Shown here in pieces: positions 8,026 to 23,161 of a stretch of 23,161 nt of DNA; positions within the stretch are counted from its first letter, which is position 1; each line of letters begins with the position of its first letter. The DNA is from a virus. Both the position numbers and the translations under genes were made by a program. Below the pieces are notes generated by a model. It did not search any database. It was not told where the DNA came from and saw only the letters and a program-made list of their open reading frames with translations. The stretch covers positions 1 to 23,161 of the IMG/VR virus record IMGVR_UViG_3300029994_000021; one strand, written 5' to 3'.

Positions 8026-9267
8026 GTGCCAAACAATTTTGCAACAACCAATTGGGTCTCGATGAAGATCCTGTGGTTCTTGAAGAATTCCTACGAGATC
8101 GCCTCGATGTTCAACAGCGATTGGGAGTCGGAATTCGGCAAGAGCTTTCCGGTGGGATCTTCAGTCCAGATCAAGATGCCGCAGAGCTGGCTGGTCACAA
8201 GCGGCCTGGCTTACCAGGAGCAGGGCATTTCGCGCCTGGTGACCACGGTCAACCTTGACCAGATCCGCGGCATTCACTTCGGATGGGATTCGTACGAGCG
8301 CCTGGTGAAGATGGAACGCACCGAGAAGGAACTCGAGGAATCGTATCTCTACCCTGCCGGTCAGCAACTGGCGCAACAGGTGGATTCGGACGCGGCCAAC
8401 TGGGCGGCGAACTGGACCAACAATGTGGTGGGCACGCTGGGCACGGACGCGACGACCATTGATTTCGCGTTGGCAGCCGAGCAGGTGCTGTTCTCGCTCT
8501 CCTGCCCGCAGGAAGGCGTGAAACATCTCTGCCTGAGCAGCAGCCTGAACCGCAGTTACGTGAAGAACAACGTGACGCAGTTCAATCCGGCGCCGGAGAT
8601 CAGCCGCATGTTCCGCAAGGGCGTGATCGGCACGGCCGGCGGGTGGGAATGGTATCGCTCAAACTCGCTGGTTTCGCATACCTGCGGCACAGCGCCAACG
8701 GGCGGCGTGACCGTGGTGGGTGCGGGCCAGTCGGGCGCCGCGCTGGTGGTAACCGGCACAAATGGCCAGACGATCAACCCGGGAGATAAGTTCGCGATTG
8801 CCGCAGTGAATGCGGTTAACCCGCGGACCCGCGTCAAGAGCGCGCTGGGACTGAAGCAGTTTGTGTATGCCGGCGGCGCTCCCTGGGTGCTGACGGGCGG
8901 GAACGACACGATCCCGATTTCGCCGGCGATCTTTGGGCCAGGCTCGCAATACCAGAACGTGGATGCACTGCCCGCGAATGCGGCCGCCTTCACCTTCTTC
9001 CCTGGAACCACGACACCGTCGGGCCTGACCGGTACGGTCAGCCTGGGACTTTCGAAGTATGCCTTCGCGAAGGCGTTCGGCAAGTTCGAGAATCCGGAGG
9101 CGGTGGAGCGGGCAGAGCATGCGGAGGATCCGGAGACGGGTGCTTCGATTGCGTTTGTTCGCGCCTGGGATCAGTACAACCGAAAGATGACCAACCGCTT
9201 CGACATCTGCTACGGATTCGGAAACCTGTATCCCGACGCCGGTGCGGTTGCGGTGGTGGGAGCCTAG
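8026..9267 (+). CDS. P22-type major capsid (coat) protein
   Basis: This 413-aa protein resembles the P22 gp5 coat family, an HK97-fold shell protein (P22 gp5 is 430 aa). It starts with GTG at 8026 after AGGAAAGAAG. The N-terminus (SMKILWFLKNSYEIASMFN, then FPVGSSVQIKMPQ) corresponds to the N-arm and first strands. LEESYLYPAGQQLAQQVD and NVDALPANAAAF mark later core regions, and the end LYPDAGAVAVVGA is typical. Residues near 220-330 are richer in Gly, Thr and Val and hold the inserted beta domain seen in this family. The scaffold gene precedes it by 18 nt. It should be the most abundant virion protein. Confidence 0.9.
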   Translation: MPNNFATTNWVSMKILWFLKNSYEIASMFNSDWESEFGKSFPVGSSVQIKMPQSWLVTSGLAYQEQGISRLVTTVNLDQIRGIHFGWDSYERLVKMERTEKELEESYLYPAGQQLAQQVDSDAANWAANWTNNVVGTLGTDATTIDFALAAEQVLFSLSCPQEGVKHLCLSSSLNRSYVKNNVTQFNPAPEISRMFRKGVIGTAGGWEWYRSNSLVSHTCGTAPTGGVTVVGAGQSGAALVVTGTNGQTINPGDKFAIAAVNAVNPRTRVKSALGLKQFVYAGGAPWVLTGGNDTIPISPAIFGPGSQYQNVDALPANAAAFTFFPGTTTPSGLTGTVSLGLSKYAFAKAFGKFENPEAVERAEHAEDPETGASIAFVRAWDQYNRKMTNRFDICYGFGNLYPDAGAVAVVGA

Positions 9268-9376: not shown

Positions 9377-10102
9377 ATGCGGAAAACGCTGAAAGCACTT
9401 CTCTCACTGTCCGCACTGGCCCTGGCGCTGCCACTTTGCGCTCAGACCAGTCTGACCTCAACCACGCTCTCGAGCGCCGTCACCTCGGCCTCGGCGAGCA
9501 GTATTGTGCTGGCCTCCGCAACGGGTATCAGCGCGCCTGCACCGGTCTCGGGGAACGTCACCGCGGGACCGACTTATACCGAGCTGTTCGTGGACCAGGA
9601 AGCGATGCTGGTGACCGCGGTCAACGGCAAGACCATCAACGTGGTGCGTGGGGTGAGCTCTACCTCCGGAGCGACGCACGCTTCCGGCTCAGTGGTCTGG
9701 GTGGCAACGCCGAGCCAGCTTTACACTGTGCAGCCCACGGGGTCGTGCACGGCGGCTAACACTGTGAACCCGTACATCAATGTGCAGACAGGCCAGTTTT
9801 GGTTCTGCGATACGGGGACAGGCAACTGGCAGCCGGTCTTTTCGACCGGCACGATCACTCCAGTGGCAACCGCGGCCGCGATCCAGACCGTCGCGCAGAC
9901 GTTCACGGTGGCCGGACTTGCAGTGGGCGAACCGGTGGCCGTTATCGGCCAGCCTGCTCCCAGTTCGCTCTGCCCTTTGGTGGCAGCACGGGTGACCGCG
10001 GCCAACACGGTGTCGCTTTACTTTACGACGCTCACCGCAGCGGCCTGTACGCCAACGTCGGGAACCTACTTCCTGATGGCGCCACGCCTCAATATCCCCT
10101 AG
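9377..10102 (+). CDS. exported hypothetical protein following the coat gene
   Basis: This 241-aa protein starts at the ATG at 9377, preceded by GGGGAG about 9 nt upstream; in-frame codons further upstream have no ribosome binding site. Residues 1-22 form a clear Sec signal peptide: RK at 2-3, a Leu/Ala core, and the junction LPLCAQ. After it come Ser/Thr-rich strands (TTLSSAVTSASASSIVLASA) and LFVDQEAMLVTAVNG..INVVRGV, a beta module known from phage and bacterial proteins of unknown role. A second part, PYINVQTGQFWFCDTGTGNW, looks like a C-terminal beta domain. A signal peptide is unexpected this close to capsid genes. It could be a decoration protein, a host-envelope protein, or a captured host gene. 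Confidence 0.72.
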   Translation: MRKTLKALLSLSALALALPLCAQTSLTSTTLSSAVTSASASSIVLASATGISAPAPVSGNVTAGPTYTELFVDQEAMLVTAVNGKTINVVRGVSSTSGATHASGSVVWVATPSQLYTVQPTGSCTAANTVNPYINVQTGQFWFCDTGTGNWQPVFSTGTITPVATAAAIQTVAQTFTVAGLAVGEPVAVIGQPAPSSLCPLVAARVTAANTVSLYFTTLTAAACTPTSGTYFLMAPRLNIP

Positions 10103-10144
10103 CCAGGCTGAACGCCCTTCAACCCAATTGACTGTTTAACCAAC

Positions 10145-10168
10145 GGGGCGGCTTTCGGGCCGCCCTTT
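10145..10168 (+). terminator. terminator-like hairpin
   Basis: GGGCGGC (10146-10152) pairs with GCCGCCC (10159-10165) around TTTCGG, followed by TTT. The stem is strong but the T-run is only three bases before G, so termination may be partial. It lies 43 nt after the exported protein's stop and 23 nt before the next start. That position could separate capsid from tail-gene transcription. Confidence 0.5.
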
Positions 10169-10190
10169 GCCTGCACGGGAGACAAGAGAT

Positions 10191-10739
10191 ATGCCGACAA
10201 CGATTGACGAAGAGAGATTTGCCAGCCAGGAAACGCTGGACCTGAGCAAGCCGCAGGGTACTGCGCAAGGCCTGCCGGTGAAGCAAATTGCGCATCAGGA
10301 GTATCCGCGGTGCGTCTACAGGCACCCGGTGGAGCCCTACCGCGAAGTGCTGCACCGTAACACCAATCACGAGGTTGTGGAGCGCGAGTTGGTGGCAACA
10401 GAGCACCTGGTGCATGTTTGCCAGCATGAGCAGGAGTTCAAGAAGAAGCTGGGCGAGGGATGGGTCGCGGAGCCGTACATTCCGCAGGCTCCGCCCGATC
10501 TGACCGAGCATCTCTACATCAAGGTCACCGAGGAGGTAGCCAAGAGGATCGGCGAAAAACAGACCTCTGATCTCGACTTCGATCTTGTGGATGCTCAGAA
10601 ATTCCTGCTCTCGCGTGGCTACCCATGCGCCAAGCCGGAGGATGCCCTCGTCGCTGTGAAGGCGATGGCAGCGAAGGACCGTCGGAGTTTCTTCAAAGAA
10701 CTCGCGGAGTTTGTGTCCGCTGAAGGCGAAGGCAAGTAG
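10191..10739 (+). CDS. hypothetical protein between coat and adaptor genes
   Basis: This 182-aa protein starts at the ATG at 10191, with GGGAGACAAGAG just before it; a TTG at 10167 would add eight residues but overlaps the terminator hairpin. The sequence is charged and His-rich in the middle (HPVEPYREVLHRNTNHEVVE, HLVHVCQHEQEFKKK), followed by GEGWVAEPYIPQAPP. A helical C-terminus follows, with KFLLSRGYPCAKPEDA and FFKELAEFVSAEG. It lies where accessory head-completion genes occur. No P22 equivalent is apparent, and I do not recognise a family. Its stop directly abuts the adaptor start, so the two are likely co-translated. Confidence 0.65.
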   Translation: MPTTIDEERFASQETLDLSKPQGTAQGLPVKQIAHQEYPRCVYRHPVEPYREVLHRNTNHEVVERELVATEHLVHVCQHEQEFKKKLGEGWVAEPYIPQAPPDLTEHLYIKVTEEVAKRIGEKQTSDLDFDLVDAQKFLLSRGYPCAKPEDALVAVKAMAAKDRRSFFKELAEFVSAEGEGK

Positions 10740-11516
10740 ATGGCAGTCACCTTCAGCGGATCGAGCGTGACCGCGCTGGCCGCCGACCTGATTCAGTCGG
10801 CGGCCTACGAGATTGGCGCGTTCGCGCCGGGTGAGCCGGTGGCGGCGGCCGAGGCCCAGTGGGCGCTGGAAGTGCTGCAGAGGATCATCGACCAGTGGAA
10901 CGCCAAGCGGTCGATGATCTTCTCGGTAGGCTTCACGACGTATAACCTCACAGCGAACCATCAGCCGCACACCATCGGGCCGACGGGCGACTTTAAGACT
11001 GGGCCCGCGGCCAATTACCGGCCGGTGCGCATCGCGTCGGCCAGCTTTGTGCTGAATCCCGGCGGGAACAATGCTGTGGATCTGCCGATTCAGATGCGGG
11101 ACAAGGATTGGTGGGCGGCGAATCCGCTGAAGTCGCAGACGTCGAGCATTATCACCGACTGCTATTACGAGCCGGCGCAGCCGAACGGCAATCTGAATTT
11201 CTTCCCGATCTGCAACGCCAACGGAGTGGTACGGCTGGAGCAGTGGAGTTCGCTGGCGCAGGCGCTTACGCTGCGGACAGCGCTTGGCCTGGTGCAAGGG
11301 TACTGGGAAGCACTGGTGACCACGCTGGCATTGGCGCTGTGCCCGAGCTTCGAGAAGCAGCCTTCGGCTGTGCTGGCGGCGCGGCAATCGGCGGCCATCA
11401 AGGTCATTTTCGAGAACAACGATCCGGCTCCGCGGATCGACACGGCGAGCGGAATGCCTGGGACTGCGGGCACGGGGCGGCCTGACTTCAACTTCTTGAC
11501 GGGGATGCGGAACTAA
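10740..11516 (+). CDS. P22 gp4-like head completion / adaptor protein
   Basis: This 258-aa protein resembles the gp4 family, the ring that attaches below the portal and closes the filled head. Supporting features: an N-terminal helical region with LIQSAAYEIGAFAPGEPVAA and EAQWALEVLQRIIDQWN; FTTYNLTANHQPHTIG; PVRIASASFV; then LPIQMRDKDWWAANP, the usual family order. The C-terminus, GYWEALVTTLALALCPSFEK, matches the closing helices. It is longer than P22 gp4 (166 aa) but similar to gp4-like proteins of other podoviruses. The ATG lies immediately after the upstream TAG. The order before a gp10-like gene matches P22. Confidence 0.8.
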   Translation: MAVTFSGSSVTALAADLIQSAAYEIGAFAPGEPVAAAEAQWALEVLQRIIDQWNAKRSMIFSVGFTTYNLTANHQPHTIGPTGDFKTGPAANYRPVRIASASFVLNPGGNNAVDLPIQMRDKDWWAANPLKSQTSSIITDCYYEPAQPNGNLNFFPICNANGVVRLEQWSSLAQALTLRTALGLVQGYWEALVTTLALALCPSFEKQPSAVLAARQSAAIKVIFENNDPAPRIDTASGMPGTAGTGRPDFNFLTGMRN

Positions 11517-13103
11517 ATGGCGCGCTTTGGATTTGTGGGGCCGACGTATTCGTTGCAGTCGGGGATCGCAGATTCCCAGCGCTGCATGAACTTTTATCCC
11601 GAGATGGTCGAGAGCGGGCAAGGCCAGTCGCAGATGACTCTCAATCGCACGCCGGGGTTGAAGCGCTTCGCGGCGATTGCGAGCCCGGTGCGCGGCTGCC
11701 TGGACTTCATCGGTACCGACGCTGCCGGACAGGCGGCTCCGCTGGCATATTTTGTGGGCGCCGGGAACCTCTACGAGGTGACGGCGGCTGGTGTGGCAAC
11801 ACTTATCGGACCGGTGGGAAATGACTTCAAGCGGGTATCGATGGCGGTAAATGGTAGCGCGGGAAACCAGCTCTGCATCTGCTCTGCAGGGAAGCTCTAC
11901 ATTTACAACCTGAGTGCTACGAAACCAACCGGCAGCATCCAGCTCGCGCCGAACGCGCTGAGCGGCACCATAGGCGGCCTGCAGGGCTTTGCTTCGAAGG
12001 TGGTGTTTTGCGATGGCTACTTTGTGGCGACCCTGGCCAACAGCAACAAATTTCAGGTTTCCGCGCTGGAGGACGGATCGAGCTGGAACCCGCTTTCGGT
12101 TCAGCAGGTATCGGTTTTCCCGGAGAGTATTGGCGGGATGGCGACGGCCTACAGGCAGTTGTGGATCTTCGGCCAGGACGGGCATGCGCAGGTGTACTAC
12201 AACAGCGGCGCGAATGCCTACACACCGTTCGATGTGATCGGCGCCGGGGGCGTGGGTTACATGGAAGAGGGCATCGACGCACCCGATTCGCTGGTGGTGC
12301 TCGATAATGCACCCTTCTGGCTCGGCGGCAGTGCGAATGGCGCCGGGATGGCTTGGCGGGCGAACGGATACACGCCGCTGCGCATCTCGACCCATGCGGA
12401 AGAGACGGCGTGGGCGGCCTACCCCAAAAAGTGCAGCGACGCGGTGGCCTACAGCTACAGGGACCAGGGGCACACCTTCTGGGTGGTGCGCTTTCCGAGT
12501 GCGAACAACGGCTATGGAGCGACCTGGGTTTACGACACGGCCACGCAGATGTGGCACGAGCGCGGCTACTGGTCGCAGAAAGGCCTCACCGGCTACAGTG
12601 CGCATCTGTCCACCTGCCACTGTTTCGCGTTTAACACGCACCTGGTGGGCGACTGGAACAGCGGCAATATCTACGCGATGGACATCGCCAACCTGGATGA
12701 CGACGGGCAGCCGCTCCGGCGCTTTCGGCGCGCTCCGCATGTCTCGACTGAGCGGCAGTGGATCTACTTTCACGAATTGGAAGTGGTGATGAACGTCGGC
12801 GATGGGCCGATGCCGCCGCTTTTGGATGGGGAAGGAAACCGACGCGGACCGCAGGCGATGCTGCGCTGGTCGAACGACGGCGGCCGCACCTGGGGCAATG
12901 AACACTGGGTGGATGTGGGACAGGCCGGAGATTATGACGCCCGGGCGCGGTGGCAGCGGATGGGCCGGGCCCGCGATCGCGTCTTCGAACTCGCAGTAAC
13001 AGACCCGATTCCCTGGCAGATCATCGAGGCCGATCTGCGAGCGACGCCGGGCTTCGACGTTCCAACCGAGCGACTGAGCAAGATGTACGGAAAGATGACG
13101 TAG
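11517..13103 (+). CDS. P22 gp10-like packaged-DNA stabilisation protein
   Basis: This 528-aa protein is the tail hub that plugs the head after packaging (P22 gp10, 472 aa). The N-terminus GPTYSLQSGIADSQRCMNFY and LNRTPGLKRFA are typical. The centre is a run of beta strands with aromatic positions (FGQDGHAQVYYNSG, APFWLGGS). The strongest signature is near the C-terminus: LRWSNDGGRTWGNEHWVDVG, followed by RARWQRMGRARDRVFELAV and TDPIPW. The gene abuts the adaptor gene and is followed within 10 nt by a G-rich repeat. No tail-needle gene like P22 gp26 follows it. Confidence 0.88.
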   Translation: MARFGFVGPTYSLQSGIADSQRCMNFYPEMVESGQGQSQMTLNRTPGLKRFAAIASPVRGCLDFIGTDAAGQAAPLAYFVGAGNLYEVTAAGVATLIGPVGNDFKRVSMAVNGSAGNQLCICSAGKLYIYNLSATKPTGSIQLAPNALSGTIGGLQGFASKVVFCDGYFVATLANSNKFQVSALEDGSSWNPLSVQQVSVFPESIGGMATAYRQLWIFGQDGHAQVYYNSGANAYTPFDVIGAGGVGYMEEGIDAPDSLVVLDNAPFWLGGSANGAGMAWRANGYTPLRISTHAEETAWAAYPKKCSDAVAYSYRDQGHTFWVVRFPSANNGYGATWVYDTATQMWHERGYWSQKGLTGYSAHLSTCHCFAFNTHLVGDWNSGNIYAMDIANLDDDGQPLRRFRRAPHVSTERQWIYFHELEVVMNVGDGPMPPLLDGEGNRRGPQAMLRWSNDGGRTWGNEHWVDVGQAGDYDARARWQRMGRARDRVFELAVTDPIPWQIIEADLRATPGFDVPTERLSKMYGKMT

Positions 13104-13110
13104 AAAAACA

Positions 13111-13140
13111 GGGGTCAGGGATCAGGGATTAGGGGTTAGG
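13111..13140 (+). repeat. G-rich quadruplex-forming repeat
   Basis: Four G-runs (13111-13114, 13118-13120, 13125-13127, 13132-13135) are separated by TCA, ATCA and ATTA, followed by TTAGG. The unit, roughly GGGATYA, matches the repeat at 5785 inside the portal gene. It fills the space between the gp10-like gene and the gene at 13149, and its last bases overlap the GGAG (13139-13142) that serves as that gene's ribosome binding site. An RNA quadruplex here could affect translation. Confidence 0.75.
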
Positions 13141-13148
13141 AGCGCTGG

Positions 13149-13493
13149 ATGGCAATTGCAGCAAAACCAGTTTATGCGGCAATGGGATACACGGACCCTA
13201 AGACGGGCGTGCTGACAACCGGCGGACAGCAGGCGCTGGCGCAGTGGCACAAGGCGATCAACTCGATCCCGGTATCGGTATCGGGCGAAAGTGCGAGCGG
13301 CGCTGCCAAGGCGTGGACGCTAGCCAACACGCCAAGCGGGAATGCGTCGCTGCTGGGCGTCACGAAGAGCGGTACGGTTCCGCTGACGCCTGGCAAGGGC
13401 AACGCGTGGAACTACAGCATCGACGGCGGCAACATCACAACCGAACAAGAGTTTGAGGAGCTGATAGCGTCCTATGAATATGCGCAGAGTTAG
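13149..13493 (+). CDS. small hypothetical protein, tail region
   Basis: This 114-aa protein starts at ATG 13149. Its GGAG ribosome binding site at 13139-13142 abuts the G-rich repeat. The sequence has an N-terminal segment with MGYTDPKTGVLTTGGQQALA, a G/A/S-rich middle, and an acidic end (ITTEQEFEELIASYEYAQS). It has no coiled coil, so it is not an obvious tail needle, although it occupies the position of P22 gp26. Its last 20 nt overlap the start of the tail-fibre gene, which suggests coupled expression. It may be a fibre chaperone or a connector. That is inference from position. Confidence 0.6.
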   Translation: MAIAAKPVYAAMGYTDPKTGVLTTGGQQALAQWHKAINSIPVSVSGESASGAAKAWTLANTPSGNASLLGVTKSGTVPLTPGKGNAWNYSIDGGNITTEQEFEELIASYEYAQS

Positions 13494-15624
13494 TTTTTGG
13501 GTGATGAGCGCCGTGATGGCTGCGGCGAGCTCGGCAAGCGCCTGGGCGCAGGTAGCTGTGTCGCCTTTCAAGAGCCCGCATGTGACTTTCACCGATTCCA
13601 ACGGCGTGTCGCTCGCTGGCGGATGTGTGTTCACCTACACGGGTGGTACGTCTACGCCACTGGCCACCTATACCGATTCGACCGGCGGGACACAGAATCC
13701 AAATCCGGTGCCGTTGGATGCGACGGGCTCGGCCAATATCTGGTTGGGGCCGTCTACTTACAAGTTCGTGATCTGGAGCACGGGCGGCACCAACTGCGCG
13801 AGCGGAGCACTGCAATGGACCGTTGACCAGGTGCCCGGGAACATCTTCAACAACACGACGGTGACTGGGGGCACGTGGAGCGGGGGCACCATCACGGGCG
13901 CGGCGGTAAGTGGCGGAACGATCAGCAACGCGGCGATTACGAACAGCACGATCGACTCCACGCCCATCGGCCAGACCACGCCGGCTTCCGGATCGTTCAC
14001 AAGCGTGGCCAGCGCCCTGAATTCCATGACGTTCAGCTCGACGCCGGTGTTTGCGGCGGGTTCGTATGGATACTTCACGATGACGCTGACGAACAACGTC
14101 ACCTCTTCGAGCATCACCGGAGGTACGGCTGGCCAGCTCATCACCTTTAACCTGTGTCAGAACGGGACCGGGCAGACGGTGGGGGGCATTACGACCGGGT
14201 TCACCTTTGCGTGGCCGTCCAACTATCTCAGTCCGCCTACGATTAATCCGATTCTCAGTTCCTGCACCATCGTCACTGCGTTCTACGACGGCGCGTACTG
14301 GAACACGGTTTCGACGACGCCGCAGATTCTTTTTGGAAACTTCGATACGGTGCCCTACAGCGCGACGCCGATCTTCCCCGCGGCAAGCTACTCGAACTTC
14401 GCTATCACTTTGACCGGGGCCGTCACTTCAAGCACCCTCACTGGCGGCGTGACCGGACAAGTTGTCACGATCGATGTTTGCCAGAATGCCACTGGAACTT
14501 ACACGTTCGTCTGGCCCACCAACCTGCTGCAGGTGCCAGGGGTTTCAACCAGCGCAAACACATGCACAGGGATTTCGGCGGTATACAACGGATCGAACTG
14601 GGTGACTGTCTCCAGTTCTACCGTATCGAGTACGACACCGCTTACCGGAAACCTAGATGTGATCCCGTTCACGGCGACTCCCATTTACTCCGCGGCTAAC
14701 TATAGCGCGTTCGAGATGACGCTCTCAGGCAACGTGACCTCCAGCTCGATCAGCGGGGGGACTCCCGGACAGCTCATCTCGATTGCGCTCAGGCAGGGGT
14801 CGTCGACCACGGCCGCGCCGGCCTCCGCGCCTACCTTCTCGACCCTCACCACGGGCGGCGCGGTCCCTGCAACGACAGCCTATTACGCCAAGTGCTCCTA
14901 CCTGCAGGGAACGGTGGAGTCTTTGCCCAGCGCGGAGGCTACCGAGACTACGGGATCTGGCGCGACGAACACGATTACCTGGAATTGCCCAGTGGCTACG
15001 GGTGTAACCAGCTACAAGTTCTATCTGGGAACGGGGACGGGAGCGGAGAATTACTACTTCACCACCTCCAGCGCATCGTACATTCAAATTGGAGTCCCGA
15101 GCACGGGAACCCCCGGAATCCCGCTGACCGGCAGCATCTACACCGTTTCGTGGCCTGCAAACCTCATCAACGCTCCCATCATGTCGAACGGAATCGGGTC
15201 AACGACCGCGCTGGACGCCTTCTATGACGGTACAAACTGGATGACGGTGGGGACCACTGGAAGTGGCTCGACCGGCGTTGTTTGCAGCGGCGGTAACTGC
15301 TATCGACAGAACCCAGATGGAAGCTACGAAGAGTGGGGGACGACGCCCACTTTCGGCGGCCAGACTGGCGGCAGTTTCTCGATGACCTTCCCGCATGCTT
15401 TCACCAATCTTGCGAGCATCACCGTAGTATTCAGCCCCAATGGGTGCGATTCCGGCGGTGGAGGTTCAGGCGCTGCTTGCGCGGCAAACCCAGGCGGCTC
15501 CGGCAACAACATCTACGCCTGCGGCATCATGACGGAGAGCTTGACGGCCCCTACCGGATTCTATTCGTCTGCGAACACGGTGCAAACCAGCTCGTCGTGC
15601 TCCTGGCACGCGTGGGGCTACTGA
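13474..15624 (+). CDS. tail fibre/spike with signal peptide and repeated beta domains
   Basis: This 716-aa protein starts at ATG 13474 with GAGGAG upstream. Residues 1-26 are a Sec signal peptide ending AWAQ. Residues 30-125 resemble phage fibre N-terminal attachment domains (VTFTDSNGVSLAGGCVFTY, NPVPLDATGSANIWL). A collagen-like Gly/Thr stretch follows. Three beta repeats of about 95 residues follow: 188-282, 289-383 and 393-593. The third is split by an FN3-like insert at about 443-552. The C-terminus (611-716) has NPDGSYEEWGTTP, FPHAF and a final HAWGY, as in gp53-like fibre tips that bind receptors. It probably sets host specificity. The signal peptide is unusual for a protein that assembles onto a cytoplasmic virion. 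Confidence 0.82.
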   Translation: MNMRRVSFWVMSAVMAAASSASAWAQVAVSPFKSPHVTFTDSNGVSLAGGCVFTYTGGTSTPLATYTDSTGGTQNPNPVPLDATGSANIWLGPSTYKFVIWSTGGTNCASGALQWTVDQVPGNIFNNTTVTGGTWSGGTITGAAVSGGTISNAAITNSTIDSTPIGQTTPASGSFTSVASALNSMTFSSTPVFAAGSYGYFTMTLTNNVTSSSITGGTAGQLITFNLCQNGTGQTVGGITTGFTFAWPSNYLSPPTINPILSSCTIVTAFYDGAYWNTVSTTPQILFGNFDTVPYSATPIFPAASYSNFAITLTGAVTSSTLTGGVTGQVVTIDVCQNATGTYTFVWPTNLLQVPGVSTSANTCTGISAVYNGSNWVTVSSSTVSSTTPLTGNLDVIPFTATPIYSAANYSAFEMTLSGNVTSSSISGGTPGQLISIALRQGSSTTAAPASAPTFSTLTTGGAVPATTAYYAKCSYLQGTVESLPSAEATETTGSGATNTITWNCPVATGVTSYKFYLGTGTGAENYYFTTSSASYIQIGVPSTGTPGIPLTGSIYTVSWPANLINAPIMSNGIGSTTALDAFYDGTNWMTVGTTGSGSTGVVCSGGNCYRQNPDGSYEEWGTTPTFGGQTGGSFSMTFPHAFTNLASITVVFSPNGCDSGGGGSGAACAANPGGSGNNIYACGIMTESLTAPTGFYSSANTVQTSSSCSWHAWGY

Positions 15625-16079
15625 TGCCTCTGATTCGGGCGATCTCTTATCGCGACATTCTTGAGGCGCCGAACGCGGCCGCGCTGCTGGACGAATACAC
15701 GGCCGAGTGTTCCCTGCCGGAGCTGGGCCCGACCTGCCCGCAGTCTCACCTCTATGAGGCGATGGAACGCTCTGGCGGGCTGCAGGCCTTCGGCGTCTAC
15801 GACAGTAGAACGCTCATCGGCTTTGCAAATGTGCTGAGTTGGGTAGTGCCGCACTACGGCACAAAGATAGCGAGCACCGAGAGCATCTTTCTCGCTGGGG
15901 AGTATCGCAAGAGAGGGATCGGCGCGGGGATGCTTGACTTCGTCGAACAGTACGCGAAAGACAATGCCTGCAAGGCGTTTCAATACACTGCGCCTGTGGG
16001 CAGCCGGTTCGCGAAGATGCTTGCGATGAACGTTGGGCGATATAGGCGCACGAACAGCGTCTTTCTGAGGAGCTTATGA
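15624..16079 (+). CDS. GNAT-family N-acetyltransferase
   Basis: This 151-aa protein begins at the ATG overlapping the fibre stop (TGATG, 15622-15626). It contains motif A of the GNAT fold: TESIFLAGEYRKRGIGAGML, where R-x-x-G-I-G-A binds the pyrophosphate of acetyl-CoA. It is preceded by the strand FANVLSWVV and followed by FVEQYAKDNACKAFQY. The substrate is unknown. Similar genes occur in tail modules of other podoviruses, often beside a cupin-like gene as here. Possible roles are modification of a virion protein or of a host protein. The next gene starts in an ATGA overlap. The frame is open upstream, but only through the fibre gene. Confidence 0.78.
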   Translation: MPLIRAISYRDILEAPNAAALLDEYTAECSLPELGPTCPQSHLYEAMERSGGLQAFGVYDSRTLIGFANVLSWVVPHYGTKIASTESIFLAGEYRKRGIGAGMLDFVEQYAKDNACKAFQYTAPVGSRFAKMLAMNVGRYRRTNSVFLRSL

Positions 16080-16555
16080 ACGCGCTTTCCATCCCAGGCC
16101 AAGCGCTGCCGCCCACACCGCCGGAGATGGAAGCTAGGATCAGGGATGCGGCGGCGAAGATCAAGCCGCACGAAGACAGTTTCAGGGTGCGCATGGAGCA
16201 CGTTCTGCATGGCGGCATGTATGCGCGGACCTGCCGGGTTCCGGGAGGTATGGCATTCACGAGCGTAATGATCAAGATCCCGACAGTGCTTACCATCCAC
16301 GGTAATTGCTGCGTCTGCGCCGGGGACCGCTGGTATGAGCTGACTGGTTACAACGTGCTTGCGGCGAGCGCTCATCGCATCCAGGCCTACGTGACGCTCG
16401 GCGATACCGAGATCACGATGTTTTTCCCCTCGGATGCCAAGACAGTGGAGGACGCCGAAAAGCAGTTCACCGATCAATGGGCGAATCTGCTATCGAGGCG
16501 GCGGCATGACAACGATTTGACCTGGATCACGGGGGTGGAAGCATGTCGGGAATAG
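16076..16555 (+). CDS. cupin-like phage protein
   Basis: This 159-aa protein has helical N-terminal residues, then a beta-rich core: HVLHGGMYARTCRVPGGMAF, IKIPTVLTIHGNC, YELTGYNVLAAS and ITMFFPSDAKTVEDAE. Alternating strands with a G-x-x-x-x-V-P pattern suggest a small cupin-type barrel. The usual metal-binding histidines are not all evident. The same protein type is found next to GNAT genes in other phages, but its role is unknown to me. It overlaps the acetyltransferase by ATGA and the following ejection-protein gene by 13 nt. Transcription is probably with the rest of the late operon. Confidence 0.6.
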   Translation: MNALSIPGQALPPTPPEMEARIRDAAAKIKPHEDSFRVRMEHVLHGGMYARTCRVPGGMAFTSVMIKIPTVLTIHGNCCVCAGDRWYELTGYNVLAASAHRIQAYVTLGDTEITMFFPSDAKTVEDAEKQFTDQWANLLSRRRHDNDLTWITGVEACRE

Positions 16556-17574
16556 GAACGGGGGCGGCGCTCATGATCGGGGCCGGGGTCAGTGCTGCCG
16601 GAGCGGTGGGAACTGGCATCATGGAGTCCAGCGCGGCAAAGAAGGCCGCGGAGACGCAGGCGAATGCGGCCGATCGCGCTGCTACGCTGCAGGGCGATCT
16701 GGGGCAGGAGTCGCTAGCCAACGAAGTGCAGACGCAGGAGCAGAATCAGGCGAACGAGGAGCCTTTCCTACAGACGGGCGCGAATAGCCTGGCGTCCCTC
16801 GGGTACCTGCTGGGCGTTACGCCGAGCGGCACCATCGGGGGTGGCACCTCGACACCGGGGCAGACGATGAGTATCCCTGGCGTCACCGGCTCAGTGACGA
16901 CGCCTGGCGTGACGCCGCTGACTGGCACAGCCAACACCAATCTGGGCGCAATGGGCTCGCTGATGGAAGCCTACCCGGGCGGTGCATTCACGGCGCCGAC
17001 GGCTGCTGAGGCCGCGGCCTCGCCAGGCGAGCAGTTTGCGCTGAACCAGGGCGAGGCCGCGGTGCAGGCTGGAGCCTCGGCGAATGGGTCGCTGCTGACC
17101 GGCGGCACTCTGAACGCTGAACAGCAGTATGGACAGGGTGTGGCCAGCACTAACTACAACAACGTGTATAACCGCGCGCTGCAAACTTACGGCACGAACT
17201 ACAACACTTGGAGCAATAACCAAACCAATCAGTTCAACCGGCTGGCGGCGATGGCCAATATGGGCCAGACTAGCGCGCAGACACTCGGATCCCAAGGTGT
17301 GCAGTCGGCGGGGCAGGTGGCGAGCACGCTGAACAACACGGGGGCGCAGGTGGGACAGGACTACCAGAATGCTGGGGCCGCGACGGCCTCCGGGTACGTT
17401 GGCAGTGCAGACGCGCTGGGAAGCGGCATTACGGGGGCGACCAACAGCCTCTCGCAGATGATGATGCTGAGTCAGCTTATGAACGCCGGTTCCAGCAACC
17501 CATGGAACACCTCGAATACGAATCAGCTGAACTCGATGATTAGCAATAACAACAACACAGCAGGTTTGTTCTAA
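16543..17574 (+). CDS. DNA-ejection protein, P22 gp7-like position
   Basis: This 343-aa protein is the first of three consecutive ejection proteins. Residues 4-27 form a Gly/Ala-rich hydrophobic segment (GAALMIGAGVSAAGAV), followed by a helical AAKKAAETQANAADRAATLQ and Q/E-rich stretches. This is the usual start of podovirus ejection proteins that insert into the host envelope. The middle is Gly/Thr-rich. The C-terminus is low complexity, rich in Asn, Ser and Gln, and ends SMISNNNNTAGLF. It is longer than P22 gp7 (229 aa). It is assigned by composition and order, not by a specific motif. It starts inside the preceding gene. Confidence 0.75.
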   Translation: MSGIGTGAALMIGAGVSAAGAVGTGIMESSAAKKAAETQANAADRAATLQGDLGQESLANEVQTQEQNQANEEPFLQTGANSLASLGYLLGVTPSGTIGGGTSTPGQTMSIPGVTGSVTTPGVTPLTGTANTNLGAMGSLMEAYPGGAFTAPTAAEAAASPGEQFALNQGEAAVQAGASANGSLLTGGTLNAEQQYGQGVASTNYNNVYNRALQTYGTNYNTWSNNQTNQFNRLAAMANMGQTSAQTLGSQGVQSAGQVASTLNNTGAQVGQDYQNAGAATASGYVGSADALGSGITGATNSLSQMMMLSQLMNAGSSNPWNTSNTNQLNSMISNNNNTAGLF

Positions 17575-17593
17575 GGCTAAGGAAAGAGACAAA

Positions 17594-19270
17594 ATGGCGA
17601 CGATTCCGCTTCCCGCACTTCATACCGCACCTATCGCGCAACCGACAAGCGCGCTGGAGATGTACGGGCAGTTGATGGGCATCAAGAATGCGCAGCAGGA
17701 GCAGCAGGCGCGCGCGCAGCAGATGCAGCAGCAGCAGGCGATGGCTCCGCTGCAGCAGCAGCAGGCTCAACAGACAGTGCAGAGCGGCCAGATGGATATA
17801 GAGGCGAAGCAGCGCGCCGCCAATGACCAGAAGGCTATGAGCGCGGTGATGCAGCAATGGGGCAAGGCTCCAAGCGCAGCGCCGTCCGTCGCTGCAAAGA
17901 CCGGATCTATTCCCGATCCGCAAACCGGCGAGGCGCTGGGCGGCTCGGCTGCAACCGTCAATGGTCCGGCGGCCGCTGGCGTACGGCAGGGGACGTCCGC
18001 GAACCCCATGCCAAGCTATGATGACCTGGTTCCGCTGGCGATCAAGAACGGCGCATCTTTCACGGCTGTCCAGGGCCTTCAGGCTCATATTCTGGACATG
18101 AAAGCAAAGGCCTCCACGATAGCGAAGGATGATGCTCAGGCGGGAACAGCCAACGCTGACGCCATGAGAACCAAGAATGGCATGATCTCCGATGCCATGA
18201 CCGGAGTGATGAGTCTGCCGGACGATCAGCTGCAGGTCGGCATTCTCAGAGCTGCGCAGGAGCTATATGGGAAGGGCCTCTTCGATCCGCAACACCTGCA
18301 GCAGGCGCAACAGCTTGCGCAGCTCGCTTACACCGACCCGAAGCAGGCGCGTCAACAACTGAATATTCAAAACCTGAGTCTGGGTGCGTTCTCAAAAGAA
18401 CTCGAGAACCAGCAAAAGCAGCTCGCTAATCAAAAAGAGGCGGGATCGATGGATCCGCAAAGCCCCTTCTATGCGCCGTCGCCGGCGGCCGTGGCCATGG
18501 GGACAGCTCCGGGGGCTGCGCAGATTAACGCAGGAGAGGTAAAGCAGGCGGCGCGCAAGGCTGGGGCAGAGGAGTCCGCGCGAATGCCGGGAGAAATGGC
18601 CCTGGCAGCCCAAAGGCAGGCGCTCTCGCAGGGTGATCCAAATGCGGCGGCTCAGCTGTTGGTGAACGGTGACGCGACTCTATCCGAGCTGAAATCTCGC
18701 GGCGCCACGCCTGATTTTATTGAGAAATCCTTGACGGCCGCCCATAGGTTGAGTGGTGGGCAATACAACGCTCAGTCGGCAGACGCGCAGTTCAGCGTGG
18801 CCAAGTCGCCGGCAAACGTCCAGTTCTTCGGCTCGGCCAAGTCGCTCACCGATAAGGGCGGAACGCTGGATCAACTGGCGCAAGCTGCGCAAGGCATCCC
18901 CGCTCACCAACTGCAGGTGCTGAACAGCGTGGCGGACTGGCAAAAAGCGCAGACAGGCAGCGGTCCAATTGCGAAGTACGCCGCGCTTACTCTCGGCGTT
19001 GCCGATGATTATTCCAAGGTAATGGGCGGTGGACAAGGAAGCGACGCATCGCGCCTGCAGGCGCAGGTTCTGGCCGCCGCAAAACAGAGCCCGGAGCAGC
19101 GCGCCGGGAGCATCGAGGGCATTCGGGGAGCCGTTTCCTCTCAGATGAACTCACGCATCGGAAGCAATCGGGTGCTGCAGAGGATGTATGGGCAGAGCGG
19201 TGGGCAGCAGCCCGGGCAACAACAGAACAGTAATGACCCGTTCGCACAGTTTGGGGGAAAGGCTCACTAA
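17594..19270 (+). CDS. DNA-ejection protein, P22 gp20-like position
   Basis: This 558-aa protein is preceded by AAGGAAAGAG 7 nt from the ATG. Residues 25-75 are a Gln-rich coiled coil (KNAQQEQQARAQQMQQQQAM). Long helical and Ala/Gln-rich segments follow (LGAFSKELENQQKQLANQ, AAGVRQGTSANP). The C-terminus is again Gln-rich. Composition and position match the second internal virion protein of P22-like phages (gp20, 471 aa), which leaves the head with the DNA and helps form a conduit across the host envelope. No catalytic motif is visible. Its stop overlaps the start of the next gene (TAATG), so the two are probably co-translated. Confidence 0.72.
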   Translation: MATIPLPALHTAPIAQPTSALEMYGQLMGIKNAQQEQQARAQQMQQQQAMAPLQQQQAQQTVQSGQMDIEAKQRAANDQKAMSAVMQQWGKAPSAAPSVAAKTGSIPDPQTGEALGGSAATVNGPAAAGVRQGTSANPMPSYDDLVPLAIKNGASFTAVQGLQAHILDMKAKASTIAKDDAQAGTANADAMRTKNGMISDAMTGVMSLPDDQLQVGILRAAQELYGKGLFDPQHLQQAQQLAQLAYTDPKQARQQLNIQNLSLGAFSKELENQQKQLANQKEAGSMDPQSPFYAPSPAAVAMGTAPGAAQINAGEVKQAARKAGAEESARMPGEMALAAQRQALSQGDPNAAAQLLVNGDATLSELKSRGATPDFIEKSLTAAHRLSGGQYNAQSADAQFSVAKSPANVQFFGSAKSLTDKGGTLDQLAQAAQGIPAHQLQVLNSVADWQKAQTGSGPIAKYAALTLGVADDYSKVMGGGQGSDASRLQAQVLAAAKQSPEQRAGSIEGIRGAVSSQMNSRIGSNRVLQRMYGQSGGQQPGQQQNSNDPFAQFGGKAH

Positions 19271-21582
19271 TGGCAACCTCTTCATGGGTACATACAGGGA
19301 CCTCGGCGAGCGCTCGCCCCTCTATCGATCCGGCGCTTGAGGGGGTATCTACTCCTCCGAATGGCGGTGAAGTTTCAGATGTTGGGCCTGCTTCTGATAC
19401 TGTGCCGATGCTTTCTCCTGACGGAAGGTCCGGGGACATCCCGTTTAAAAATGTGGACGCGGCAAAAGCGGCCGGGTTCAAGGTTGCGGTGACGATGCGC
19501 TCGCCGGACGGGCTGAACGGATACATTCCAGCGGAGAATGTGCAGGCCGCTGCCGCCAAGGGCTTCACGATGGTACCGATGGACGTGCCTGACGCCGCCA
19601 AGGCGAGCTATTGGGATGCGCTCACCAACCCGGTGGGCTCGGGCGGTCGCGACCAAGGGCTGCTGGGCGGCGCGCTGCAGGTGGGCGGCCAAGCCGTCAA
19701 GGCGATGGCGCAGCCTTTTCTGCACCCGATCGACACGCTGAAAGGGGCGGCGAAGGTCGCATCGGATGCGGTGATTAATGGCCCTGCTGCGGCTATCGGG
19801 ACAGACTTGGTGGATCCGGCTGTTCAGCAATATATGCAGGATAAGCAGCAGGGCGGCAACGCGCTCGCAGCTGAGAACCTGGGCGGCCAGTTGCTTGGGA
19901 ACATCGAGGGCGGCCGGGTGATGGGCGCGGCGGTGTCGGGGATCAAGCCCTCGGCCGCACTGGGGCCTGCTGGAGAAGCGCCCGTGGCTGGCGCAGAGGG
20001 TCCAGTCAACACGGTGGGCGGCGTGAACCGGCTGATCCCCGAGGCGGTCCGCAATGGCACGCTTCCCTCAGCGTGGGATTTTGTGAATAACCGGTGGCAC
20101 CCGAAGTCGGTGCTGACCGGGGACGTGAATGCGCCGATCCCGGGAACCACAGATCTGACGCCAGCGGCGCGATACGCGTCGATGAAGAGTGTGGGCGTGC
20201 AACCGGATGCGGCAGAGGCAACAAACTCGACACCTTTGAACGCGGCCAAGTGGCTCAATGAGAATAGCCTCACGTCTCAGGCGAACTACACGAGGGCGCA
20301 TGCCTCGAACCTCGCGGCGCTTAACCGCTTCACGGATCGCCTCCTGGACACTATGTCTCCGGTAGGTTCGGAAGAAGGCGGCGCGGCGGTGCAGCAGGGG
20401 CTGCTGGCGAGCCATGCTGACTTGAAGGCGGCCGCAACTGAGGCTTTCAAGGATCTCGATAGCCAGGTGGGAAACCAGCCACTGCCGGGAGCGGCTGGTT
20501 TGCGGCAGCAGGCGCAGGCGATTCTCGATGAGAACGCTCCGTATTACAAACTGCATCCCGAGCTCGAGCCGACGAAGGCGATGGCGATCGTGCGCGACCT
20601 GGCGGACGCGAAAGGGACTGGTAAAGCGGCTCCCGCAGTGGTTTCCGGCTTTGGACCAGCATCCGCTGCCCCGGAGGCTGTGCCCCCTCGCGTGCCAACC
20701 TATAGCGAACTTCATCGGCTCCGGTCCGATTTGCTTGACTTCAACAACACGAACCCCGATTTGGTGAAGAACCAGGCGAACGGATGGATTTCTCAGCTTG
20801 CTGGCGCAGCAGACAACGCGATCACTTCCGGAGAAAGTGCTTTGACGCCGGACCAGGTCGAGACCTTCCGCAATGCAAACGACGCCTGGAAGTACATGAA
20901 GGCCACCTACGATAACCCGCAGCATCCGTTTTATAACGCCGTGCGCACGCCCGACGCCTCCACGCTGGTCAAGGGTATCCGGCAGACTCCCGAAATGGCG
21001 AAGGCGCTTCAGGCAGCGCTGGGGCCGGATGGGATTGGACCGATCCAGCGCGGCGTGGCGGAAAATCTGCTCGCCACGACGAAAGAGGGCGGATACAACT
21101 TCAAGACATTTCAAGGGCGGTGGAACAAGCTGCCCGAAGCGTACCGAAACGCGCTGTTTACGCCGGAGCAGGTCCAGCAGTTTGAGGACATCGGGAATGC
21201 TGGGACGGTGCTCCACGAGGACCTGAACCCAAGCGGATCGGCAAAGATGGGGCTGAAATATGGGGAGATGGGCGAGGCTGGCGCGGCAATACCAGCGGCG
21301 GTGACGGGCCACCCGTTAGCCTTAGGCGCCACTGCGGCCTACCATGCCACGCAGTATGCCCTGGGCAAGTTTATGAACAGCCCTATTTTTGTTGATTGGC
21401 TGATGCGGGATCAGGGCGTGGCAGCGGGTGCGCACACACCGGCGGTGAACCCGACAGGTCCGGCGGCGGCCGCGGGAGCGGCGATGGGCAGCAGGACCGG
21501 GCCGCTCGGACAGCCTAACTACTATTCAGATGAGTATCTGCGCTCAAAGGCGGCGTTCGATGCCACCCGGGTCAACCCTTAG
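19270..21582 (+). CDS. DNA-ejection protein, P22 gp16-like position
   Basis: This 770-aa protein is the largest of the ejection set (P22 gp16 is 609 aa). Near the N-terminus are two tandem repeats, residues 48-71 and 77-100, sharing SPDG..G.IP..NV.AA...GF. Next comes a hydrophobic/Gly-rich stretch with GGALQVGGQAVKAMAQPF and VINGPAAAIGTDL, possibly membrane-active. The centre is helical (LRQQAQAILDENAPYYKLHP, TYSELHRLRSDLLDF). Near the end, AGAAIPAAVTGHPLALGATA is another hydrophobic stretch, followed by a low-complexity tail. No lytic transglycosylase motif is visible. It overlaps the preceding gene by TAATG and the opposite-strand gene downstream by 11 nt. Confidence 0.75.
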   Translation: MATSSWVHTGTSASARPSIDPALEGVSTPPNGGEVSDVGPASDTVPMLSPDGRSGDIPFKNVDAAKAAGFKVAVTMRSPDGLNGYIPAENVQAAAAKGFTMVPMDVPDAAKASYWDALTNPVGSGGRDQGLLGGALQVGGQAVKAMAQPFLHPIDTLKGAAKVASDAVINGPAAAIGTDLVDPAVQQYMQDKQQGGNALAAENLGGQLLGNIEGGRVMGAAVSGIKPSAALGPAGEAPVAGAEGPVNTVGGVNRLIPEAVRNGTLPSAWDFVNNRWHPKSVLTGDVNAPIPGTTDLTPAARYASMKSVGVQPDAAEATNSTPLNAAKWLNENSLTSQANYTRAHASNLAALNRFTDRLLDTMSPVGSEEGGAAVQQGLLASHADLKAAATEAFKDLDSQVGNQPLPGAAGLRQQAQAILDENAPYYKLHPELEPTKAMAIVRDLADAKGTGKAAPAVVSGFGPASAAPEAVPPRVPTYSELHRLRSDLLDFNNTNPDLVKNQANGWISQLAGAADNAITSGESALTPDQVETFRNANDAWKYMKATYDNPQHPFYNAVRTPDASTLVKGIRQTPEMAKALQAALGPDGIGPIQRGVAENLLATTKEGGYNFKTFQGRWNKLPEAYRNALFTPEQVQQFEDIGNAGTVLHEDLNPSGSAKMGLKYGEMGEAGAAIPAAVTGHPLALGATAAYHATQYALGKFMNSPIFVDWLMRDQGVAAGAHTPAVNPTGPAAAAGAAMGSRTGPLGQPNYYSDEYLRSKAAFDATRVNP

Positions 21583-21775
21583 CGGCGGAGTTCAGCTTGT
21601 CCTGAAGCGCGCGGTCACGGAGCAGTTCGCCATCGAGGTCGCGCGCTGCTTTTTCATCCTCGCGCTGCTGCCGTATCTTTTCGGCCCACCGCTTCTCCCG
21701 GTCTTCGAGAATGGGACGCGCAGCGATGACCGTGAGCAGGCCGATAACGATGGATTGAAACCAGTAGTCGTGCAT
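21572..21775 (-). CDS. small single-span membrane protein
   Basis: This 67-aa protein on the minus strand starts 8 nt after the stop of the exported protein gene, with AAGGTGG upstream. Residues 7-22 (QSIVIGLLTVIAARPI) form one transmembrane helix. A long, highly charged helix follows (EDREKRWAEKIRQQREDEK, then DLDGELLRDRALQDKLN). The layout fits an inner-membrane protein with a coiled-coil tail, such as a spanin-like or holin-associated protein, but it is too short to decide. It converges with, and overlaps by 11 nt, the stop of the ejection protein gene. No convergent terminator is seen there. Confidence 0.6.
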   Translation of the reverse strand: MHDYWFQSIVIGLLTVIAARPILEDREKRWAEKIRQQREDEKAARDLDGELLRDRALQDKLNSAAKG

Positions 21776-21783
21776 GGTCCACC

Positions 21784-22434
21784 TTAGTTGCAGTTCGTGT
21801 ACGAGGTGTCTCCGATATGTTGCGTTGTGCAGTTTATGTTCGGATTGGCGCGGTAGGGAGCGATCTGCATAGGTGCCGGCAGGGGCATCGGTTGGAATGC
21901 TGGCCTAGCAGTTTGCAGCGTCATCCACGCCTGGAGCAATTGTTGCCTGCGCGCGGCTTTCTCGGCTGTCGCTTGTGCTCGCCGCTGCTCCTCTGCCTGC
22001 GCACGTTGCTGGGTCTCAAATTCGGCCTGAGAGCGCATTGCGGAAAGCGACGGAACAGCCGCCTGTGCAGGCTGAGACAGTCTCAACCTTTCATTTAAAT
22101 ACCTGAGGCGAAAGATCTCCTCGTTGAGGCCGGTAATCAGCTCGCTGATCTCAGCAGTTCGGAATGGCACATATCCGGCAGCGAAAGCCTCCTTGGTTTT
22201 GGCGACGTCGACGTATTCCAGCCCATTTTTGGGGTTGTGCATGAGCACGACAGCGCCTCCGGCCGGATTAACCAGCATGATCGAGAAATTCGCGTAATTG
22301 GGTGGCTCTGATTGAGCCGGCGCGACCGCAGACGGCTGCTGCTGCGGAGGCGGGATCAAGGTCACCGGTGCCGAGGTCTGAGCGCACGCAGAGCAACTCA
22401 ATATGCAAACAGCGACAAGCGCAACTTTCATCAT
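21784..22434 (-). CDS. exported Gln/Ala-rich protein, possible lipoprotein
   Basis: This 216-aa protein starts at the minus-strand ATG at 22434, after GTGAGG. The frame is open 26 codons further upstream without a ribosome binding site. Residues 1-19 are a signal peptide (MMKVALVAVCILSCSACAQ). Either C14 (ILSC) or an Ala-x-Ala-type site ending CAQ could be the cleavage point. A Pro/Gln-rich linker follows, then a small domain (NFSIMLVNPAGGAVVLMHNP, GLEYVDVAKTKEAF), a coiled coil at about 95-175 (ISELITGLNEEIFRLRYLN, EQRRAQATAEKAARRQQ), a Pro-rich stretch and a C-terminal NCTTQHIGDTSYTNCN with two cysteines. It may be an outer-membrane or periplasmic factor. It is first in a two-gene operon. 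Confidence 0.68.
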   Translation of the reverse strand: MMKVALVAVCILSCSACAQTSAPVTLIPPPQQQPSAVAPAQSEPPNYANFSIMLVNPAGGAVVLMHNPKNGLEYVDVAKTKEAFAAGYVPFRTAEISELITGLNEEIFRLRYLNERLRLSQPAQAAVPSLSAMRSQAEFETQQRAQAEEQRRAQATAEKAARRQQLLQAWMTLQTARPAFQPMPLPAPMQIAPYRANPNINCTTQHIGDTSYTNCN

Positions 22435-22502
22435 TTTCAACCTCACAGAGAAGCCCACGGCCGCAACTGAGGGCTCTCCGGGTGTGTGGATTACTCGCCA
22501 AA

Positions 22503-22511
22503 ATGATACCA
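22503..22511 (-). promoter_or_regulatory. candidate extended -10 promoter for the minus-strand cassette
   Basis: On the minus strand the sequence reads TGGTATCAT, an extended -10 (TGn plus TATCAT). No good -35 lies 17 nt upstream (CGGTAC); TTGCCG lies 21 nt upstream. Initiation here would leave a leader of roughly 60 nt before the start at 22434. The rest of the 135-nt divergent gap (22435-22569) shows no clear promoter for the plus-strand gene. Confidence 0.35.
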
Positions 22512-22569
22512 CCCCGTAGGTAGATGTACCGGCAAATCAAGCATTTGAACCAATAACAAAGGAAAAACC

Positions 22570-23161
22570 ATGATCAAGCGGTTGTTTGTAACCGTCGCGC
22601 TGCTGTGCGCGATGGCGGGCTCTCTTTGCGGTCAAAACACGACGACCTTTGGAAATATCACGGCGCTGGGCGTGCCCTGCGGGGCCGCGAACTGTGTGTA
22701 TTACCAACTGCCGCAGGGAACACCCTGGGTTTTAGTGACCGTTTCAGGCACGTGGACGGGCGTTCTGGAGACGGCTACGACCAGTGCGCCTAACGCGAAC
22801 TATTCGAATTTGGACACGGTTGCCTGGACGGCGCTGGCAACGGAAACGGCAAATGGGACCTGGTCGCCGGCGACCAGTGGCGCGACCTATCTGCGCGTGC
22901 GGGCAACGGCGTGGACGAGCGGAACCGCGCAGGTAAATATGGCCGCATCGGAAGTGCTGACGCCGATGATGAACCCGATCTTTCCGGGAAGTGCCGGCGC
23001 TGGAGGAACACAGATTGGATCGGCCGGCGTGACTTTTCCTGACGGCAGCGTGCAGGCAAGCGCGGCGGCGCCAGCGATCGCAGGTTTGAGCGGCGACGGC
23101 ACCGGCAATGTGACCGTCCAAAAGCAATTGTCGGCAAGCACCGTCGCGGCTACCGGTCCGG
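22570..23161 (+). CDS. fibre-like protein with signal peptide (3' truncated by window edge)
   Basis: An ATG at 22570, preceded by AAAGGA 8 nt upstream, opens a frame that stays open to the window end (197 codons seen). Residues 1-21 are a Sec signal peptide (MIKRLFVTVALLCAMAG, junction SLCGQ). The mature part is Thr/Ala/Gly-rich with beta-type strands: NCVYYQLPQGTPWVLVTVSG, ATYLRVRATAWTSG, then GVTFPDGSVQASAA, a motif common in phage fibre proteins, and a second Ser/Gly/Val-rich stretch (GLSGDGTGNVTVQKQ). It is probably a second tail fibre or secreted fibre-like protein. The missing C-terminus holds the evidence needed to decide. Confidence 0.7.
   Translation, partial: MIKRLFVTVALLCAMAGSLCGQNTTTFGNITALGVPCGAANCVYYQLPQGTPWVLVTVSGTWTGVLETATTSAPNANYSNLDTVAWTALATETANGTWSPATSGATYLRVRATAWTSGTAQVNMAASEVLTPMMNPIFPGSAGAGGTQIGSAGVTFPDGSVQASAAAPAIAGLSGDGTGNVTVQKQLSASTVAATGP

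Follow-up and report, generated by a model that had tools for sequence, protein, structure and literature searches.

A P22-like podovirus with fibre-type proteins predicted to be exported

In a P22-like podovirus of Acidobacteriota, the late region encodes fibre-like and other virion-type proteins that start with predicted signal peptides for the host Sec pathway. The stretch of DNA analysed (the window; 23,161 bases) is the entire IMG/VR record IMGVR_UViG_3300029994_000021, and the four genes concerned are named here SP1 (start at 9377), SP2 (13474), SP3 (22570) and SPinv (22434, minus strand). In the textbook account, tailed phages assemble entirely within the cytoplasm. Conservation across the clade of an export signal on precisely those proteins that face the receptor implies a different route of assembly, and we think it probable that peripheral, receptor-facing virion proteins are exported as Sec precursors, oxidised in the periplasm, and joined to particles at or after lysis. 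The predicted signal peptides and their cleavage site, their conservation in the clade, the head-binding domain of SP2 and the paired cysteines are well supported from sequence. The genes and their predicted features are as follows (a slash marks the predicted cleavage site; aa, amino acids).

9377..9442, plus strand: SP1 signal peptide, 22 aa, junction LCA/Q (rule-based scan; Q at +1 in 49/49 distinct relatives)
9377..10102, plus strand: SP1, predicted exported all-beta virion-type protein behind the coat gene, four cysteines in the mature chain
13474..13548, plus strand: SP2 signal peptide, 25 aa, junction AWA/QVAVSP (rule-based scan, homologue alignment)
13579..13836, plus strand: SP2 tailspike head-binding domain, directly after the signal peptide (7eeq_A, E=1.7e-11; 9vyg/9vyh, down to 4.6e-10)
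13474..15624, plus strand: SP2, predicted exported tail fibre or tailspike, 716 aa, 14 cysteines in the mature chain
21784..22434, minus strand: SPinv, predicted exported 216-aa protein of an inverted cassette
22570..22632, plus strand: SP3 signal peptide, 21 aa, junction LCG/Q (rule-based scan)
22570..23160, plus strand: SP3, N-terminal 197 aa of a fibre predicted to be exported, at the tailspike position; the contig ends within the gene

Signal peptides, starts and cleavage sites

Signal peptides were predicted with our own rule-based scan (not SignalP), in which all start codons were tested. Among 28 non-overlapping open reading frames (ORFs) of the window, the scan picked exactly the four genes, and the starts, for which a first-pass annotation had described N-terminal signal peptides. 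The precursors begin MRKTLKALLSLSALALALPLCA/QTSL (SP1), MNMRRVSFWVMSAVMAAASSASAWA/QVAV (SP2), MIKRLFVTVALLCAMAGSLCG/QNTT (SP3) and MMKVALVAVCILSCSACA/QTSA (SPinv). By this rule they have the features of a Sec and signal peptidase I substrate, namely a charged n-region, a hydrophobic h-region and small residues at -3 and -1. The observed score was reached by 17 (SP1), 2 (SP2), 1 (SP3) and 0 (SPinv) of 2000 whole-protein shuffles. None of 384 distinct core virion and packaging ORFs of relatives was positive under the same rule. Sec-type signals on fibre-like proteins are, as the first-pass annotation had remarked, abnormal for a podovirus. Export and cleavage of the SP proteins, as predicted, are very likely.

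The coat protein served as the anchor for finding relatives, of which 80 viral ones were kept, and in most of them the SP1 gene lies directly behind the coat gene. The 49 distinct copies of SP1 all have Q at +1 and have A, G, S or C at -1. Their mean identity is 20% in the signal peptide versus 39% in the first 25 mature residues. Drift of this kind around an unchanging cleavage site marks a signal peptide that is in use and is cleaved. It is unlikely, in our view, that the hydrophobic segment serves another purpose, for instance as an anchor that stays uncleaved in the membrane or as an inefficient signal, with the bulk of the protein assembled in the cytoplasm. The well-studied podoviruses do assemble in the cytoplasm, and three further SP1 copies (L018, L030 and L063) have atypical long segments with an acidic residue. 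However, the residues at -1 and +1 are held constant despite drift elsewhere, the paired cysteines described below point to an oxidising compartment, and proteobacterial homologues do without the segment.

The called starts are predictions, and the first-pass annotation had allowed that the true starts might lie downstream of the hydrophobic segments. Such an artefact is barely credible. A Shine-Dalgarno-like motif lies upstream of 32 of the 49 SP1-family starts versus 13% of random positions, and no ATG or GTG with such a motif was found just past the cleavage site in the 49 SP1-family copies; a downstream start is therefore very unlikely. In addition, the depositors of Tunturi_2, a cultured phage discussed below, picked the same kind of start.

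Three of the four junctions do contain the C-[AG]-Q motif noted in the first-pass annotation, but its reading as a phage-specific signature was ruled out. Relatives keep [AG]/Q but not the C at position -2, and Q at +1 is common in the host as well: it occurs in 14 of 42 Acidicapsa host signal peptides, and [AG]/Q is the commonest host junction. C-[AG]-Q is thus an ordinary host signal-peptidase preference.

SP2 keeps a virion-docking domain

Right past its signal peptide, SP2 begins with the head-binding domain of tailspikes from solved structures (7eeq and 9vyg/9vyh; E is about 5e-10 for the 9vyg chains), which places this domain at the predicted mature N-terminus. Because it is a tailspike head-binding domain, the protein predicted to be exported keeps its virion-docking part. 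All 13 of the first-listed homologues in the SP2 clade carry an export signal, and a further homologue (L140), missed by the rule, has by eye a signal peptide with the junction AEA/QTP. In the close homologues L094, L095, L004, L008 and L011 the junction /QVAVSP is kept, and the signal peptide itself drifts.

The proteobacterial homologues of SP2 that were checked start 8-15 aa ahead of the same domain and have no signal peptide. These include proteins of Xanthomonas phage PBR31, Rhodoferax phage P26218, ctNMl277, ctn9Y15, DSL-LC05, VvAW1, and further Vibrio and Shewanella phages; in PAE2, no coding sequence is annotated at the corresponding position. Podoviridae sp. ctNMl277 has the same gene order as the window (head-closure protein, small protein, fibre, ejection proteins), with its signal-less SP2 homologue at the same place. 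The fibres of PBR31, P26218, Vibrio phage VvAW1 and ctNMl277 share the head-binding N-domain, and their phages a related coat protein, but they lack both the signal peptide and a conserved pair of cysteines in the domain. This pair (C51 and C108 of the SP2 precursor) is found in 12 of 13 signal-bearing homologues versus 0 of 6 signal-less ones.

Other approaches to SP2 were less informative. Its structure prediction with AlphaFold2 (AF2) had a predicted local distance difference test (pLDDT) score of 48, too poor to use. When the SP2 C-terminus was searched against INPHARED, nothing matched; P0001 and P0004 likewise had no match there, and scans of the exported proteins against Pfam, PHROGs and NCBIfam gave almost no matches.

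Paired cysteines and the nature of SP1

The mature chains of the three exported families have an even number of cysteines in 51 of 53 proteins, versus 110 of 221 core proteins (Fisher 1.7e-11, a value that overstates the case because family members are related). In the N-domain of SP1, C124 is nearly invariant and C144 is invariant. The C-terminal part of SP1 is swapped among four modules between which no similarity could be detected; in each of them the typical number of cysteines is even. Such numbers fit disulfide bonds that would form in the periplasm. Among the meanings offered in the first-pass annotation, fibre maturation in the periplasm is the one favoured by the paired cysteines and the conserved head-binding domain.

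The N-domain of SP1 resembles a tail tip domain of phage chi (8vjh, E=9e-12) and a domain of the JBD30 tip protein (8rk3, E=1e-4), and SP1 has weak PHROG tail matches. The AF2 model of mature SP1 is all-beta with a mean pLDDT of 77 (above 90 for residues 31-50 and 71-100). Foldseek found no match to this model at E<=0.001; several of the best weak matches were phage tail or spike parts. On the coat-protein tree, the distribution of the SP1 gene needs four changes of state. One clade of 21 coat-protein rows (L031-L052) has unrelated signal-less genes (e.g., MATGGPNQTATPFPVVDF...) in the place of SP1.

The main rival to assembly onto the particle is a role off the virion, in which the exported proteins would be free receptor-binding proteins that coat or modify the infected cell, block superinfection or re-adsorption to debris, or bind outside surfaces. 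We regard this as possible and rather improbable overall, and SP1 and SPinv as the proteins to which it could most readily apply. In its favour are the paired cysteines and the conservation of the signal peptides, the swapped C-terminal modules of SP1, which are what one expects of a ligand-binding protein, the only putative virion location of SP1, and the position of SPinv in an inverted, moron-like cassette. However, the tailspike head-binding domain kept by SP2 would serve no obvious purpose off the virion, the fibre and spike slots that signal-less proteins occupy in the proteobacterial relatives are filled by SP2 and SP3, and no other large fibre was seen in a related prophage of Acidicapsa.

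Hosts, a prophage and cultured phages

Six relatives turned up when genomes were scanned with the coat protein. One is integrated in the isolate Acidicapsa dinghuensis 4GSKX (on a 1.16 Mb scaffold), and four are in metagenome-assembled genomes (MAGs) named Acidobacteria, Acidiferrales or Bryobacterales, all Acidobacteriota. The sixth is in a MAG labelled Betaproteobacteria, on a contig (L098, JAHFRL010000053.1) whose phage is of acidobacterial type and encodes SP1 and a fibre like SP2; it is possible that the contig is mis-binned or that the host range of the clade is wider.

The Acidicapsa prophage extends from the terminase to a phage integrase (PF00589). It retains SP1, SP2, SPinv and an SP3 of full length, each with a signal peptide. 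In its late block, no large fibre without a signal peptide was seen. The prophage and the MAGs also bear on the suggestion, made in the first-pass annotation, that the phage captured host secreted-protein modules. The signal peptides are indeed host-like, with Q at +1, but no homologue of SP1, SP2 or SP3 was found outside the phage or prophage contig in the six host genomes or MAGs, and the solved structures that the domains match are those of phage tail proteins. We consider such capture very improbable.

Export signals also occur in a cultured phage. Tunturi_2, a podovirus, infects Tunturiibacter psychrotolerans X5P2, and images of its particles were taken by its authors (PMC11924767). At the depositors' starts (PP885685; L133 9802-22744), gp12, gp13, gp14, gp16 and gp17 have export signals, of which the phage's paper (PMC11924767) makes no mention. 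gp13 is annotated as a tail fiber, gp14 as a pectin lyase (with a sub-threshold pectate-lyase match) and gp17 as a virion structural protein, and the whole precursors contain 20 (gp12), 10 (gp13), 21 (gp14), 2 (gp16) and 34 (gp17) cysteines. Tunturi_2 thus resembles the phage of the window in being an acidobacterial podovirus with export signals in the tail region and cysteine-rich large fibres. It differs in its 63 kb genome and was not retrieved by the coat-protein searches.

A proposed two-compartment route to the particle

We propose that receptor-facing virion proteins would be made as Sec precursors and exported by the host, and that signal peptidase I would cut them at [AG]/Q. Folding of the exported proteins and formation of their disulfide bonds would follow in the periplasm, an oxidising compartment, and DNA-filled heads and the core tail would be assembled in the cytoplasm from signal-less proteins. 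The two pools would meet at lysis, when spikes and fibres could dock through their N-terminal head-binding domains, and only then, during lysis or after it, would the particle be complete.

The virion-docking domain is retained in SP2, and no large fibre candidates other than SP2 and SP3 were seen in the late region, so the simplest account is that both reach the particle. If they do, joining would have to wait until the inner membrane has been breached. In P22, the tailspikes are the last parts to attach and can be added to spike-less heads in vitro, which makes late docking plausible. The broader claim, that cytoplasmic heads and Sec-exported, disulfide-stabilised spikes are joined at lysis and that this arrangement arose or was acquired in at least two lineages of Acidobacteriota podoviruses, seems to us about evenly poised between true and false.

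Several observations weigh against this account or narrow it. Docking after lysis is something that we infer, as are actual export and disulfide formation, and SP1 might not be a virion part. Host secreted proteins are not generally mostly even in cysteines (16 of 31), so parity is a property of these fibres and not of every exported protein; moreover, cysteine counts within one family are not independent. A signal-less receptor-binding protein is not strictly absent, because the window contains the following gene, possibly encoding an ordinary receptor-binding protein.

16076-16555, plus strand: 159-aa protein without a signal peptide, weak short tail fibre matches (PHROG 12032, E=3.7e-5; 24280)

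Lastly, Tunturi_3, which infects the same host strain as Tunturi_2, and the siphovirus Tunturi_4 showed no export signal in those tail genes that were checked, and most of their fibres contain few cysteines. These phages infect the same genus without the trait, and export is therefore not required by the host. The exported-fibre trait is a phage strategy and is not forced by the host.

With export, disulfide chemistry could become available to fibres that have to last in soil and peat, and released spikes could act on cells before or during lysis. Annotation pipelines may miss exported fibres in other phages. The proposed route is directly testable with an existing phage-host pair (Tunturi_2) and with the Acidicapsa prophage.

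Comparison with other phage proteins that bear export signals

The host Sec pathway is also used by signal-arrest-release (SAR) endolysins (an example is in PMC3765740), by Rz1 lipoproteins and by filamentous-phage coat proteins. These proteins work in the envelope or are put together in the membrane, and none of them is a spike of a tailed phage that is built in the cytoplasm. In PBR31, a deacetylase or esterase with a signal peptide is encoded beside the lysis genes (orf040; L088 19380-20027, minus strand), as its authors observed (PMC10975493).

Closer in kind are two podovirus fibre-like proteins (tail fiber / putative structural protein) with N-terminal signal peptides, Burkholderia phage BcepC6B gp19 (L107:12001-13074) and PBR31 orf035 (L088:17124-17933), which are homologous to each other (55% identity). 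Their signal peptides, recognised by eye in BcepC6B and by the rule in PBR31, read MKKLIALFSLFCTSAFG/A and MKKLIAILLAVPALALG/A. In contrast to the SP genes, these are second fibre-like genes of Proteobacteria phages, and PBR31's own tailspike has no signal; no sequence link between them and SP1-SP3 was found. We found no discussion of signal peptides on phage fibres in the literature, which is weak evidence of novelty, since most subscription journals and preprints lay outside the coverage.

SP3 and the inverted cassette

The full-length SP3 homologue in the Acidicapsa prophage has 982 aa and a signal peptide (L113:10547-13495, minus strand). It contains a GMSMG motif of the GXSXG type, which suggests an esterase or alpha/beta-hydrolase domain, and has no family match.

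Between the ejection genes and SP3 lies an inverted two-gene cassette (21572-22434, minus strand) that encodes the predicted exported SPinv and a small membrane protein.

21572..21775, minus strand: small protein downstream of SPinv; by eye it seems to have a single membrane segment

SPinv has a charged, helical-looking middle and a C-terminal pair of cysteines (NCTTQ..YTNC), and its homologue in the Acidicapsa prophage is at the same place and in the same orientation. SPinv was also considered as a lipoprotein processed by signal peptidase II: its ILSC fits the lipobox [LVI][ASTVI][GAS]C only loosely, and the Acidicapsa homologue, without a lipobox, reads SFS/QTP. A role for the cassette as lysis genes was considered and set aside, with no family match. 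The cassette is possibly a moron.

The virion module

The late region contains genes for an endolysin, terminase, portal, scaffold, coat, connectors, head-closure protein, fibre and ejection proteins. PHROGs 156, 8865, 283, 578 and 598 were matched in gene order, and the coat, portal, scaffold, gp4/gp10-like connector and ejection proteins stand in the order of a P22-like virion module. Two of its genes are the following.

8026..9267, plus strand: major coat protein (PHROG 283, E=5.9e-49)
11517..13103, plus strand: gp10-like head closure or packaged-DNA stabilisation protein, without a signal peptide (PHROG 578, E=7.1e-97)

A second, 31,965-base record (IMGVR_UViG_3300029953_000113) is identical to the window across the proteins compared.

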